A stretch of 64,000 bases of DNA from Paenirhizobium daejeonense (lineage in GTDB: Bacteria > Pseudomonadota > Alphaproteobacteria > Rhizobiales > Rhizobiaceae), in assembly GCF_014280875.1 (NCBI RefSeq), contig NZ_JACLAL010000005.1:62001-126000 (forward strand), read 5' to 3'. The notes beneath the pieces are model-generated. The model searched no databases and was not told the DNA's origin. It worked only from the letters and a program-made list of their open reading frames with translations. This document shows positions 10,436 through 15,152 of this stretch, piece by piece. A program made the position numbers and the translations under genes. Each line of letters opens with the position of its first letter. Position 1 is the stretch's first letter.

Positions 10436-10528
10436 CCGTGGCAGGTGCGAGGCTGCGACGGCGTAGCGCATCATAAGTCTTTCCGCATCGCAAAAAACCA
10501 CCTGTCACGAACACGTAATCTTAAATGA

Positions 10529-13500
10529 TTGTCGCTTGTATTGACCGATCAATATCTTGTTGAATCGGTTCGCACCTTGCGATTTTTATTTATTGTTCAC
10601 CCGTTTTTCCGGCTTGCGGCACTAGCGTTCGCTACCCTTGCTGCACCGGCTAAGGGCGTCGCAGCATCCGCCCCAGGAGATACCGCCTCTGCAGCTGGCA
10701 ATATCGCCTGGCTGATGGCAGCTGCTGGCATGGTCATGATGATGCAGGTCGGCTTCCTCCTCCTTGAAGCCGGGATGGTGCGTTCCAAGAACTCGATCAA
10801 CGTCGCTCAGAAGAACCTTCTGGACTTCGTCTTCGGAGCGGTCGCCTTCGCTGCGATCGGCTTTATGTTCGCTTTTGGCGCTTCCGGTTGGCTTCCGGTC
10901 GGTGTCGATGGTGATTTCTTCTTTCTCCAGAGGCTCGATAGCTGGGAATCCGCCTTCTTCGTCTTTCAGGTGATGTTCTGTGGCACGGCTGCTACCATCG
11001 TCTCGGGTGCCGTTGCCGAGCGCATGAAGCTCGCAGCCTATGTTTTCGGCTCCATCTTCCTTTCCGCGGTGATCTATCCGTTCTTTGTACATTGGGCCTG
11101 GGGAGGGGCACTGGGCCCCAATTCCGGTGCATTCCTCGCCAATCTCGGTTTCGTCGATTTCGCCGGTTCCACGGTGGTTCATGCGACCGGCGGCTGGATA
11201 TCGCTTGCGGCCTGCGCCGTTATCGGTCCTCGGCTGGGGCGCTATGACAGTGAGGGACGACCGGTCCGGATCGCGGGGCATAGTCCCGTTCTGTCGACGA
11301 CCGGCGCCCTTATCCTTTTCTTCGGCTGGATCGGCTTCAATGGGGGCTCGACGCTTTCGGCCAATGCGGACGTGGCTCCGATCATCCTCAATACGGTGCT
11401 TGCCGGGGGCATCGCCTGCTGCGTCGGTTATGTGCTTGGATATATGCAGGATCAGATCGTTTTGCCGGAGAAGTCGCTCTGCGGCATGCTGGGCGGACTG
11501 GTTGCCGTAACAGCCGGCTGCCAGGTTCTACAGCCGGGTGGAGCACTGATCGTCGGCGCTCTCGGAGCCGCGGTAGCGATATTCGCCAACGACTTCCTGG
11601 AGCGCAAGCTGAAGATCGATGACGCCGTCGGTGCAATCGGCGTTCACGGCTTCGCCGGTGTTGCCGGCACGCTCGCCTTGGCGTTGCTGGCCCCGGTTGA
11701 TCGCCTGCCCGCTGGCGGACGATTGGAGCAGCTATATGTGCAGGCATTCGGCTCGGCACTGAATTTCTACTGGGCATTCGGCCTCGGCTGGATATTCTTC
11801 AAGGTGCTGGACAAGACGCTTGGTATCCGTGTGTCGGGCGAGGTCGAGGAGATCGGCCTCAACGTTGCCGAACACGGCAGCCGGCTGGGTGTCGGCCATG
11901 TGGAGCAGGCATTGTCGGATCTCCTGTCCGGCGCGGCGGACCTGAGCCGCAGGCTTCCTGTCGAAGCGGGTGACGAGGCAGAGAACCTGACCGCGCTTTT
12001 CAACCGCTTGATGGACAACATCCAGACCGAGGAAAGAGCACGCGAGGAGGAACGCTCGCTGAAGCGCGACGACGAGGAAGCCGAGCGCGTTACGGCCCTC
12101 GCCAACGCCACCTTCGAGGCCATTGTCATCTATCATGATGGGATCATCCTCGATGGCAATGAACAGCTGGCGGAATTGATGGGTGTTTCTCTTGATCAAC
12201 TGATTGGCCGGCCTATCCGGGATGTTCTTGCTGCAGATCAGGCAGAGGCCGACGCCATGACAGGCGCCGAAGGCGGTTTCGACATGGAGATCAGCCTGCT
12301 GCGCGACGATGGCGAGGTTATCCCGGTCGAGATGAAGGGGCGCGAGATTGTTTATCGCGGAAAACCCATGCGTATCGGCTGCCTTGTCGATCTTCGCGAG
12401 CGCAAGCGTGTCGAAAACCAGATCCGCTACCTTGCCCAGCATGATCCACTGACATCCCTACCGAACCGGGCGTTGTTCAACCAGAGGCTCGCAGATAGCG
12501 TGAGGGATATACGGCGGCAGGGCGGATGCGCCGTGCTGATGATCGATCTGGATCACTTCAAGGATATCAACGATATCCACGGGCATCCCGCCGGCGATGC
12601 AGTGATCCGCGAGGCCGCTGACCGTCTGCAACGTATACTGGGAAGTCATGACGTCGCCGCCAGGCTTGGCGGCGACGAGTTCGCCATCATCCTGTCCCGA
12701 ATCAATTTTCAGGCCCAGGTCGAGGATTTCTGCGGCCGGTTGGCGCAGTCGTTCCGCAAGCCCTTTGAAATAGGGGGCGGCGATTTGATCAGGTGTGGTG
12801 TCAGTATCGGCGCCGCGATGTGTCCAGACCACGCAGAAACGGTTGAGGAACTGGTCGGCCGCGCGGACGTGGCACTTTACCACGCCAAGAATTCCGGTCG
12901 TAATACGTTCCGTATCTTCAAGCCCGGCATGAATACGCTGATCGAGAAACGCCGTGCCCTTGAGGTGGACCTCGACGCGGGCATCGCAAGGGGTGAGTTC
13001 GAACTTTTTCTGCAGCCGCGTGTCGACGTGGTTTCCGCCGAGGTGACGTCCTATGAAGCCTTGCTCCGCTGGCATCACCCGGAACGCGGCATCGTCAGCC
13101 CCGTCGATTTCATTCCGGTGGCCGAGGCTTCCGGCAAGATCATCGCGCTGGGTGAATGGGCCATCCGCGAGGCATGCCGCATGCTTTCGCTTGAGGCGAA
13201 CGTTGGCAGGCTTTCCATCAATGTCAGTCCGATACAGTTTCGCCACACCGATTTCCGCCGTCGTCTCGACGAGATCGTGCGCACAGCCGGCGTGGAGACG
13301 AAGCGGCTGGAGCTTGAGATCACCGAAAGCGTGTTGATCGATGACGACAAGCGGGCGCTCAAGATCCTCAACGAACTCAAGGTGAGCGGCTACGAAATAG
13401 CGCTCGACGACTTCGGTACCGGTTATTCTTCCCTGTCCTATCTGAGCCGCTATCCCTTCGATACGATCAAGATCGACCGCGGTTTTGTCTCCAACCTGGG

Positions 13501-13768
13501 GGAGGAAGGTAGCGCAGAGGCGATCGTTCACTCGATCATCGATCTTGGCGGCAGACTTGGTATGACCGTGGTCGCCGAAGGTGTGGAAACACTGGAGCAG
13601 GCTCGCTTCCTGGCAAGGTCCGGATGCGATGAACTGCAGGGATATCTGCTCGGCCGACCGCAGCCGCTTGACAAGATTGCGCTCTCAGTGCCGGCCGAAG
13701 TGGTGGCTGGTCTAGCCATGGAAATACATGGTGGAGCAGAGACGCCAGCAACTCAACGTGCGTCGTGA
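10529..13768 (+). CDS. Ammonium transporter fused to PAS-GGDEF-EAL (c-di-GMP signalling)
   Basis: A 1079-residue fusion. Residues about 50-450 are an Amt/MEP/Rh channel, with the pore aspartate in DFAGS (210), twin histidines His218 (VVH) and His373 (GVHG), and the Ser274 equivalent in FNGGS. The typical Amt tail motif GLNVAEHGS follows. A charged helical linker (about 450-520) leads to a PAS domain (about 525-635). Next come a GGDEF domain (intact GGDEF at 714, but the inhibitory-site RxxD position reads GSHD) and an EAL domain (EALLRW at 843, LDDFGTGYSS, AEGVET). The intact channel and both catalytic motifs suggest an ammonium sensor or transceptor controlling c-di-GMP. The start is probably TTG at 10529; other in-frame TTG codons at 10541 and 10577 are possible, and the first ATG lies inside helix 1. 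Confidence 0.92.
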   Translation: MSLVLTDQYLVESVRTLRFLFIVHPFFRLAALAFATLAAPAKGVAASAPGDTASAAGNIAWLMAAAGMVMMMQVGFLLLEAGMVRSKNSINVAQKNLLDFVFGAVAFAAIGFMFAFGASGWLPVGVDGDFFFLQRLDSWESAFFVFQVMFCGTAATIVSGAVAERMKLAAYVFGSIFLSAVIYPFFVHWAWGGALGPNSGAFLANLGFVDFAGSTVVHATGGWISLAACAVIGPRLGRYDSEGRPVRIAGHSPVLSTTGALILFFGWIGFNGGSTLSANADVAPIILNTVLAGGIACCVGYVLGYMQDQIVLPEKSLCGMLGGLVAVTAGCQVLQPGGALIVGALGAAVAIFANDFLERKLKIDDAVGAIGVHGFAGVAGTLALALLAPVDRLPAGGRLEQLYVQAFGSALNFYWAFGLGWIFFKVLDKTLGIRVSGEVEEIGLNVAEHGSRLGVGHVEQALSDLLSGAADLSRRLPVEAGDEAENLTALFNRLMDNIQTEERAREEERSLKRDDEEAERVTALANATFEAIVIYHDGIILDGNEQLAELMGVSLDQLIGRPIRDVLAADQAEADAMTGAEGGFDMEISLLRDDGEVIPVEMKGREIVYRGKPMRIGCLVDLRERKRVENQIRYLAQHDPLTSLPNRALFNQRLADSVRDIRRQGGCAVLMIDLDHFKDINDIHGHPAGDAVIREAADRLQRILGSHDVAARLGGDEFAIILSRINFQAQVEDFCGRLAQSFRKPFEIGGGDLIRCGVSIGAAMCPDHAETVEELVGRADVALYHAKNSGRNTFRIFKPGMNTLIEKRRALEVDLDAGIARGEFELFLQPRVDVVSAEVTSYEALLRWHHPERGIVSPVDFIPVAEASGKIIALGEWAIREACRMLSLEANVGRLSINVSPIQFRHTDFRRRLDEIVRTAGVETKRLELEITESVLIDDDKRALKILNELKVSGYEIALDDFGTGYSSLSYLSRYPFDTIKIDRGFVSNLGEEGSAEAIVHSIIDLGGRLGMTVVAEGVETLEQARFLARSGCDELQGYLLGRPQPLDKIALSVPAEVVAGLAMEIHGGAETPATQRAS

Positions 13769-13889: not shown

Positions 13890-15152
13890 ATGCAGACGTG
13901 GAACCTGGCCTTGTTCGTCAGCGAAGCGGTTCTCTACTTCGTCCTGATGACGACGCTCCTTCATTTCCGGCACCGCATTGGCCTTGGTGTCTTTCTGACG
14001 GCGCTTGGGGTCATGCACTTTGTTGAGACCTATCTCGCGGCGGTCTTCTATATCGAGCTTCCCTTCGGCGTCGTCTCACCGGGCTCTTCCGTGTTCTTCG
14101 CCGGCAAGCTGATGCTGATCCTGATGCTCTACATCAAGGAAGATGCGTCCACCGTACGCCAGCCGATCTACGGGCTCTTTCTAGGCAATCTCGTGACGGT
14201 TGCAATGGCGCAACTTCTGCTGCTGCACCAGACGGTCGAGCCGACGGCAGCGCAGGCCGCCGACATGACCTTCCTGCGGGAGATGGGCCTGCTGATGATT
14301 TGGGGCACGACGCTGCTCTACGTCGATTCGCTCGGCATCATCCTCCTTTATGAGCGGCTTGGTCGGATGATGCCGCGCCTTCCGGTCGCCAGATTCTGGC
14401 TTTCCGGCGCTCTCGTGTTGACCTTCGACCAGATCGGGTTCTTCGCGCTCCTGAACTATCTGTTTGATACGCCTCCTGAAGTCTTCTGGGGAGGCTGGCG
14501 TGCCAAGATGGTGTCGCTCATCCTGTATTCGGCAATGTTCGCGATTTACCACCGGCTGCTGCGGGGTGGTGGCGTATTGCACTCTCGGCGTCCGATCCGG
14601 GATGTGTTCAGCGATTTGACGTTCCGCGAACGCTACGAGGACCTGCTGTCCCGGACGGGGCGCGACGTGCTAACCGGGGTGTTCGATCGCAGCCGGATGG
14701 AGATTGAGGCCCCGCGCCTCCTTCGCGAGTCGCTGAAGGAGGAGGAGCCGGCCAGCCTGATGATTATCGACGTGGACTATTTCAAGTCGATCAACGATCG
14801 CTTCGGCCATCTACGCGGCGATGCATTACTGAAGGAGATCGCTGGCTGTCTTCAGTCCACGGTCAGGCCGCAGGACCATCTCTTCCGCTTTGGCGGTGAG
14901 GAATTCGTGGTGATGTGTCCACGCACAGCCTATGCGGAAGCGTTGCTGCTTGGGGAAAAGCTGTGCAGGACTATCCGCAATCAGGTCAACAATCCCACCG
15001 GCGAGGCCGTAACCATCAGTCTAGGCATTGCCGCCGCCCCTGAGGACGGCGGCAGTTTCAACAGTCTACTGTCACTGGCAGACGAGCGGCTTTATCAGGC
15101 CAAGAACGATGGCCGAAACCGAATCGTAGGCCGGCCGATCGCAGAGGCTTAG
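13890..15152 (+). CDS. Membrane-bound diguanylate cyclase (GGDEF)
   Basis: A 420-residue protein. Residues 1-230 hold about six or seven hydrophobic helices forming an unnamed membrane sensor. The rest is a GGDEF domain with DVDYFKSINDRFGH and the active-site GGEEF near residue 335. The product-inhibition site RPQD precedes it by five residues and is intact, so the enzyme is probably an active, feedback-inhibited cyclase making c-di-GMP from GTP. It starts 121 bp after the Amt-GGDEF-EAL gene on the same strand, and co-transcription is possible. The sensor input is unknown. Confidence 0.9.
   Translation: MQTWNLALFVSEAVLYFVLMTTLLHFRHRIGLGVFLTALGVMHFVETYLAAVFYIELPFGVVSPGSSVFFAGKLMLILMLYIKEDASTVRQPIYGLFLGNLVTVAMAQLLLLHQTVEPTAAQAADMTFLREMGLLMIWGTTLLYVDSLGIILLYERLGRMMPRLPVARFWLSGALVLTFDQIGFFALLNYLFDTPPEVFWGGWRAKMVSLILYSAMFAIYHRLLRGGGVLHSRRPIRDVFSDLTFRERYEDLLSRTGRDVLTGVFDRSRMEIEAPRLLRESLKEEEPASLMIIDVDYFKSINDRFGHLRGDALLKEIAGCLQSTVRPQDHLFRFGGEEFVVMCPRTAYAEALLLGEKLCRTIRNQVNNPTGEAVTISLGIAAAPEDGGSFNSLLSLADERLYQAKNDGRNRIVGRPIAEA

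Follow-up and report, generated by a model that had tools for sequence, protein, structure and literature searches.

A family of Amt-HAMP-PAS-GGDEF-EAL proteins in Alphaproteobacteria, probably ammonium-occupancy receptors controlling c-di-GMP

The window analyzed here is a 64,000-nucleotide stretch of the Paenirhizobium daejeonense genome (contig NZ_JACLAL010000005.1, positions 62,001 to 126,000). One continuous open frame on its forward strand encodes a 1079-aa protein, in which an ammonium transporter (Amt) domain is joined through HAMP and PAS domains to a GGDEF and an EAL domain, the modules that make and break cyclic di-GMP (c-di-GMP), the signal switching bacteria between swimming and settling. 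The frame and its domains are placed as follows, with positions counted from the first letter of the window.

10529..13768, + strand: Amt-HAMP-PAS-GGDEF-EAL frame, 1079 aa, of uncertain start (TTG 10529, 10541 or 10577)
10706..11881, + strand: ammonium transporter (Amt) domain, residues 60-451 (Pfam PF00909 Ammonium_transp, E 4e-103)
11903..12025, + strand: HAMP linker domain, residues 459-499 (sub-threshold in Pfam for the window protein; supported by orthologs, L091 and L114)
12086..12400, + strand: PAS domain, residues 520-624 (the overlapping Pfam models PAS_9 and PAS, above cut-off)
12434..12904, + strand: GGDEF diguanylate cyclase domain, residues 636-792, with RLGGDEF (Pfam, 8e-45)
12641..12652, + strand: degenerate I-site GSHD (not RxxD), residues 705-708, from the sequence and the family alignment
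12968..13660, + strand: EAL phosphodiesterase domain, residues 814-1044 (Pfam, 9e-69)

Pfam finds the Amt, PAS, GGDEF and EAL domains in frame 10529-13768, confirming the original prediction, made from the sequence of this region, that all four lie on one polypeptide. The domains named in its five-part order are thus present, but the HAMP domain between Amt and PAS had been overlooked. In the window protein, HAMP falls below the Pfam cut-off (E 0.012 for the whole protein); it is matched at E<=0.1 in 21 of 22 orthologs and exceeds the cut-off in ortholog L091 (27.6 bits vs 25; L numbers are our labels for individual loci) as well as in the related Amt-MCP protein L114. The Pfam scan gave no match to the MCP signalling domain PF00015 in the window protein. 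All five domains share one frame in 78 of the 80 relatives from named genomes (the best 80 of 407 confirmed relatives), which argues for one gene rather than two separately translated proteins. One of these 78, L078, is N-terminally cut, and the remaining two, L038 and L077, end after PAS owing to contig ends. The comparison makes the domain order less special than suggested, as Amt-HAMP-PAS-GGDEF-EAL is widespread in Alphaproteobacteria, Amt-PAS-GGDEF-EAL occurs elsewhere in the phylum, and Amt-GGDEF structures have been solved.

The relatives include proteins of Ciceribacter, Neorhizobium, Pseudorhizobium, Roseibium, Stappia, Cohaesibacter, Rhodobium, Henriciella and a Devosia metagenome-assembled genome, the nearest named one being that of Ciceribacter sichuanensis (Rhizobiaceae), at 94% over the Amt-HAMP part. 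Within the window's genus, 21 of 36 genomes have a full-length ortholog (this count includes the window's own, and some of the others are incomplete), as does one of 24 genomes from other families of the order (G056). Among 393 genomes of the family, 41 (the window's own again counted), from 16 of 99 genera, have the Amt-HAMP-PAS stretch at E<=1e-130. This patchy spread indicates that the gene is accessory. A title and abstract search of the open-access literature, with most subscription papers outside its reach, found no description of an Amt-GGDEF-EAL protein.

The cyclase and phosphodiesterase modules both look intact. An alignment of 83 distinct five-part sequences shows the signature and metal residues of GGDEF kept in every copy, save for the first Gly (82); the EAL domain retains in all 83 the motif Glu, the Asn, both Glu of EITE, both Asp of DDFG, the Lys, the Glu of AEGVE and the Gln. 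These are the positions assigned to catalysis in the two families, and their conservation leads us to expect that both making and breaking of c-di-GMP are possible, as had been predicted. The soluble part has the active-site residues of tandem GGDEF-EAL proteins, its closest solved chains being the tandem proteins 5M3C and 4RNH, and it lacks RxxD, a motif that is common but not strictly defining in cyclases. The I-site is indeed degenerate, with GSHD read at its position; RxxD is present in 13 of the 83 family members and missing in 70, and product inhibition through this site would usually be absent in the family. GSHD had also been taken as a pointer to an output set by the PAS or Amt state. 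The missing Arg is usual in the family and says little on how the output is controlled.

The solved structures closest to the window Amt domain are those of Amts with a fused output. The top PDB match is 6EU6 (E 8.5e-92), followed by 8QJ3/8QPF (3.1e-83), 2B2F (3e-47) and E. coli AmtB (~1e-35). 8QJ3, which also matches the window GGDEF domain, is presumably the Amt-HAMP-cyclase protein Sd-Amt1 from Shewanella denitrificans (Science Advances 2024); the PDB search itself names no organism. 6EU6 is Ks-Amt5, the ammonium sensor histidine kinase of Kuenenia (PMC5764959). That report describes a protein that keeps all pore residues yet translocates ammonium inefficiently, and a buried site that holds two ammonium ions, formed by Q24, E31, N47, D50, T51, T109 and T112. 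In the window protein these positions are occupied by Q73, E80, N96, D99, F100, T156 and S159, with Phe in place of T51 and Ser in place of T112. Hence, six of the seven ligand positions are kept, and the seven-residue set is identical to that of 8QJ3, Phe included. The six positions shared by both sets lie in two stretches.

10745..10825, + strand: buried ammonium-site residues Q73, E80, N96 and D99, aligned pairwise with Ks-Amt5 Q24, E31, N47 and D50
10994..11005, + strand: buried ammonium-site residues T156 and S159, aligned with Ks-Amt5 T109 and T112

Of the residues of this site, E, N, D, T and S are invariant across the 83 five-part proteins and Q is kept in 82. The window Amt likewise has the pore Asp, the twin His, the Phe gate and the Ser. 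To set the two groups of residues against a wider background, we used 203 Amt rows, which after removal of 18 identical ones and of the N-terminally cut L078 left 124 fused and 60 plain Amts. A row counted as fused if its locus held an open frame of at least 600 aa or an Amt-HAMP-PAS start, with no Pfam check per row; 40 of the plain regions were chosen by hand from the match list and the others automatically. The same seven pore residues occur in 121 of the 124 fused and 59 of the 60 plain Amts. Being near-universal, and complete in Ks-Amt5, they carry no information on sensing versus transport. The "complete conduction pathway" of the original prediction is therefore correct as a statement about residues, but not as evidence for conduction. 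In one five-part protein, L072 of Neorhizobium alkalisoli, the Phe gate and the Ser are aligned as L and A (Ks-Amt5 223 and 227) with the buried site intact, which is a possible hint that conduction may be dispensable.

The six-residue site is distributed differently, being intact in 121 of the 124 fused Amts vs 8 of the 60 plain ones. The fused rows read QENDTS in 121 cases and EENDTS, QENNAS and QENDTA once each; the plain rows read AENLSS (31), AEKLSS (1), HEIDAS (9), an AmtB-type string (10), QENDTS (8) and QENDTA (1). On these alignments, the buried site goes along with fusion but is no proof of sensing. Nine plain Amts carry it with at most one change, which rules it out as a strict mark of fusion. 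Seven of those nine form one clade (100/100), and L117 and L133 stand apart, near the AENLSS group. The plain Amts L196, L197 and L202-L206 combine the buried site with a shared short C-terminal tail resembling EH(A/G)E(V/I/L)GYPEF.

The window protein was also compared with known and newly collected Amt proteins. Ks-Amt5 has a histidine-kinase output, PMC5764959 mentions no PAS or HAMP linker in it, and its Y30 and F34 are Leu and Met in the window protein. The chains of 8QJ3, 8QJ4 and 8QPF, listed as "ammonium transporter", share the six site residues and the Phe at the T51 position and carry a GGDEF output; 8QJ3 has no EAL match, and the ~46 residues between its Amt and GGDEF matches are too few for a PAS domain. 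A layout like that of 8QJ3 is seen in a 639-aa Amt-GGDEF protein (L230:3453-5369) on a plasmid of Vibrio sp. THAF191d (replicon 1.85 Mb). In genomes of the class or phylum, Amt-histidine kinase fusions were also collected (L116, L118-L131, L134, L209), with HATPase_c in 17/17 by Pfam.

Other Amt-PAS-GGDEF-EAL proteins are found by Pfam in other classes (L210-L213, L215, L216, L222, L223) and in the window's own class (L225); L219, also of this class and grouped with them, has no PAS. The buried site is intact in most of these proteins, L187 (the Amt of L210) reading QENNAS. They differ from the window protein in showing no HAMP match at E<=0.001, in the separate clade occupied by the rows tested, and in the I-site, with RxxD in seven of the nine other-class proteins compared vs GSHD in the window. 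L200:589-2811 (-) encodes a 741-aa Amt-PAS protein with no output domain by Pfam, its nearest relative L199 having GGDEF; it may be a shortened or broken copy, or its output may reside in a separate gene. The Amt-MCP proteins are, according to the trees, the nearest kin of the window Amt outside its own family. They carry an MCP signalling domain by Pfam where the window protein has PAS-GGDEF-EAL, and HAMP directly after Amt is common to the window protein (sub-threshold there) and L114, L115, L026, L132, L185 and L186. These six, together with L198 and L229:2950-5415, look like ammonium chemoreceptors. L229 is annotated just as "ammonium transporter"; it sits on a plasmid of Phaeobacter inhibens, typed as conjugative.

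E. coli AmtB and the window genome's other Amt, L001, share the Amt fold and pore residues with the window protein, but they have no buried site (LYCVAV in L001) and no fused output, they adjoin a PII gene, and they belong to a distant clade. L001 is a plain AmtB type in a glnK-amtB pair; therefore, assimilation has its own gene. The window protein departs from assimilatory AmtB in its fused C-terminus, in its separate clade and in its surroundings: the 80 family loci, which for the most part cover 6 kb on either side, show no PII gene.

The relationships among the fused Amts were followed in a tree of 83 Amt domains and in a second tree to which L225 and L204 were added; the long branches L209 and L198 were part of an earlier tree and were left out of these two and of the quick tree described below. 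The 12 GGDEF-EAL fusions outside the five-part family in this set include L207 from the window's class; seven were Pfam-scanned at full length and five searched with custom hidden Markov models only, which found GGDEF, plus EAL in full-length frames. In both trees the five-part family is one clade (100/100) and sits with Amt-MCP proteins in a group of 23 rows (100/98). Adding two further Amt-MCP rows gives support of 93/83 in the 83-row tree and 93/79 in the second. It is these two branches, the 100/98 one and this weaker one, that place the family inside the Amt-MCP group. The Amt-kinases, the other GGDEF-EAL fusions and 8QJ3 form a separate clade (100/98, then 99/98 with two rows added), into which L225 falls despite coming from the window's own class. 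All fused Amts lie on one side of a branch with support of 92, 80, 92/83 and 57/59 across four trees; when the long Ks-Amt5 row is set aside, the remaining fused rows come together at 99/90 (83-row tree) and 92/90 (second).

A single origin of all c-di-GMP-fused Amts is disfavored, this topology being 72.75 log-likelihood units worse (p-AU 0.004) in a test made on a quick tree, with the group named after the tree had been seen and with L200, which has PAS and no GGDEF by Pfam, counted in it. Amts have probably acquired a c-di-GMP output at least twice. For the five-part family, the simplest reading of the tree is that an MCP output was replaced and HAMP was kept.

Domain order, the conserved site, intact catalytic residues and family kinship are read directly from the sequences. 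We think it likely that the protein is a membrane ammonium-occupancy receptor that controls c-di-GMP, and not an assimilatory or flux-reading transporter. This reading is favored because the closest solved Amts are Ks-Amt5 and 8QJ3, the buried site is conserved and tracks fusion, a separate AmtB-type gene lies next to a PII gene elsewhere in the genome and the catalytic residues are kept. Periplasmic ammonium would enter the Amt vestibule and be captured in the site formed by Q73, E80, N96, D99, T156 and S159. Occupancy of the site would alter the cytoplasmic end of the Amt domain, and the HAMP domain and the PAS coiled coil would relay this change, altering the pairing of the GGDEF-EAL output and thereby shifting the balance between making and breaking of c-di-GMP. 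By analogy with results reported for Sd-Amt1, ammonium would raise c-di-GMP, a direction that we favor by a narrow margin over the opposite one. Binding of c-di-GMP enzymes by a PII protein, described for Azospirillum (PMC7646526), provides a precedent for nitrogen control of c-di-GMP by another route.

Several observations weigh against the receptor reading. Nine of the 60 plain Amts, which have no transducer attached, carry the site with at most one change; it may thus be older than the fusions and cannot by itself mark sensing. In one tree, support for a group of all fused Amts is weak (57/59). Finally, the bulky residues Y30 and F34, which help to close the pore of Ks-Amt5, are Leu and Met in the window protein, so that the latter may still conduct.

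A narrower version of the receptor reading, overlapping with it, is that the protein acts mainly as a phosphodiesterase, with GGDEF binding GTP as an allosteric switch and ammonium controlling breakdown only. Many tandem GGDEF-EAL enzymes act as GTP-switched phosphodiesterases, and the tandem nature of the closest solved chains, 5M3C and 4RNH, points the same way. However, retention of the GGDEF signature and metal residues in 82-83 of 83 proteins would make cyclase activity possible, and we regard breakdown alone as a tentative option, with perhaps a third of our confidence behind it.

The original prediction left open whether "flux or occupancy" of ammonium is converted into a c-di-GMP level. 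In a true transceptor, ammonium would be transported by the Amt domain and its flux or the transport cycle read by the output, in agreement with the full set of conduction residues and with the replacement of the obstructing Y30 and F34 of Ks-Amt5 by Leu and Met. Nearly all Amts compared nevertheless share the same pore residues (121 of 124 fused, 59 of 60 plain), as does the inefficiently translocating Ks-Amt5 (PMC5764959), and the genome carries another Amt gene, of AmtB type, next to a PII gene. A transceptor is consequently unlikely, and of the two alternatives occupancy is favored by the buried site shared with Ks-Amt5 and 8QJ3.

It is very improbable that PAS sets the output, with Amt mainly a membrane anchor: PAS does precede GGDEF in all 78 relatives reaching GGDEF and Amt-free c-di-GMP enzymes abound in the genome (33 GGDEF and 17 EAL matches, two Amt genes only, making the five-part protein one among many c-di-GMP proteins), but an anchor would not need the buried site kept in 82-83 of 83 proteins, and the Amt-kinase and Amt-MCP fusions, without PAS match in the scans made, couple this Amt type to PAS-free outputs.

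Returning to the receptor reading, coupling of Amt to c-di-GMP is already known from 8QJ3. What is new here is the five-part family as a separate clade grouped with Amt-MCP proteins, that is, the domain combination and its probable separate origin. We hypothesize, at slightly below even confidence, that Alphaproteobacteria built an ammonium-to-c-di-GMP receptor apart from the Sd-Amt1 lineage, in which an ancestral Amt-HAMP chemoreceptor would have swapped MCP for PAS-GGDEF-EAL, so that a site once able to steer swimming would now set the swim/settle messenger in both directions. If the receptor reading is true, many soil and marine Alphaproteobacteria have a direct input of external ammonium to c-di-GMP, and the link between nitrogen supply and attachment becomes testable in one protein with a mutable site. 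Such receptors can hide under the name "ammonium transporter", as the Phaeobacter Amt-MCP protein does. In the wider group, one kind of sensor is naturally joined to different outputs (kinase, MCP, GGDEF, GGDEF-EAL), and these swaps can help to explore how dimeric outputs are driven by a membrane domain that is trimeric.

Two further features concern the beginning of the gene.

10509..10530, + strand: conserved 22-bp near-dyad GAWCACNNANTNTTAARTGATT, a candidate promoter or operator (matrix from 12 of the 78 upstream regions scanned)
10577..10669, + strand: probable signal-peptide-like N-terminus ahead of the first Amt helix, read by eye from the translation and relatives

The first possible start, TTG 10529, is probably not real, because it overlaps the 22-bp element and is not a start codon in ortholog L004 (92% identical); L003, L004 and L005 all retain TTG 10541 and TTG 10577. 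The element lies at a near-constant upstream distance and is clear in ~13 of the 78 regions, 12 of which built the matrix, and weaker elsewhere. A regulon for it was rejected, only two further matches being present in the genome, with 3 mismatches each, and one with the reversed control. Control by sigma-54/NtrC was likewise rejected: an apparent TGGCA-N8-GC site at 10439 does not stand out, and the upstream regions of the window gene and 77 relatives do no better than their single-base shuffles, of which a mean fraction of 0.56 reaches the observed score. Near the gene, no RNA element matched above the Rfam gathering score, and PADLOC annotated no defence system.

Upstream lie genes for a HlyU family protein, an alpha/beta-hydrolase (opposite strand) and ilvA, and downstream those for a VUPS-GGDEF protein, an azoreductase-like protein and a LysR protein. 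HlyU, IlvA and VUPS-GGDEF recur in 45, 44 and 26 of the 80 loci, respectively, but as conserved operon partners they were rejected: the pattern looks like synteny, and they are absent from the Roseibium, Stappia, Cohaesibacter, Henriciella and other-family loci. The gene that comes next after the five-part frame, at 13890-15152 (+), encodes the VUPS (vitamin-uptake-like sensor)-GGDEF protein, a second transporter-like sensor with a cyclase.

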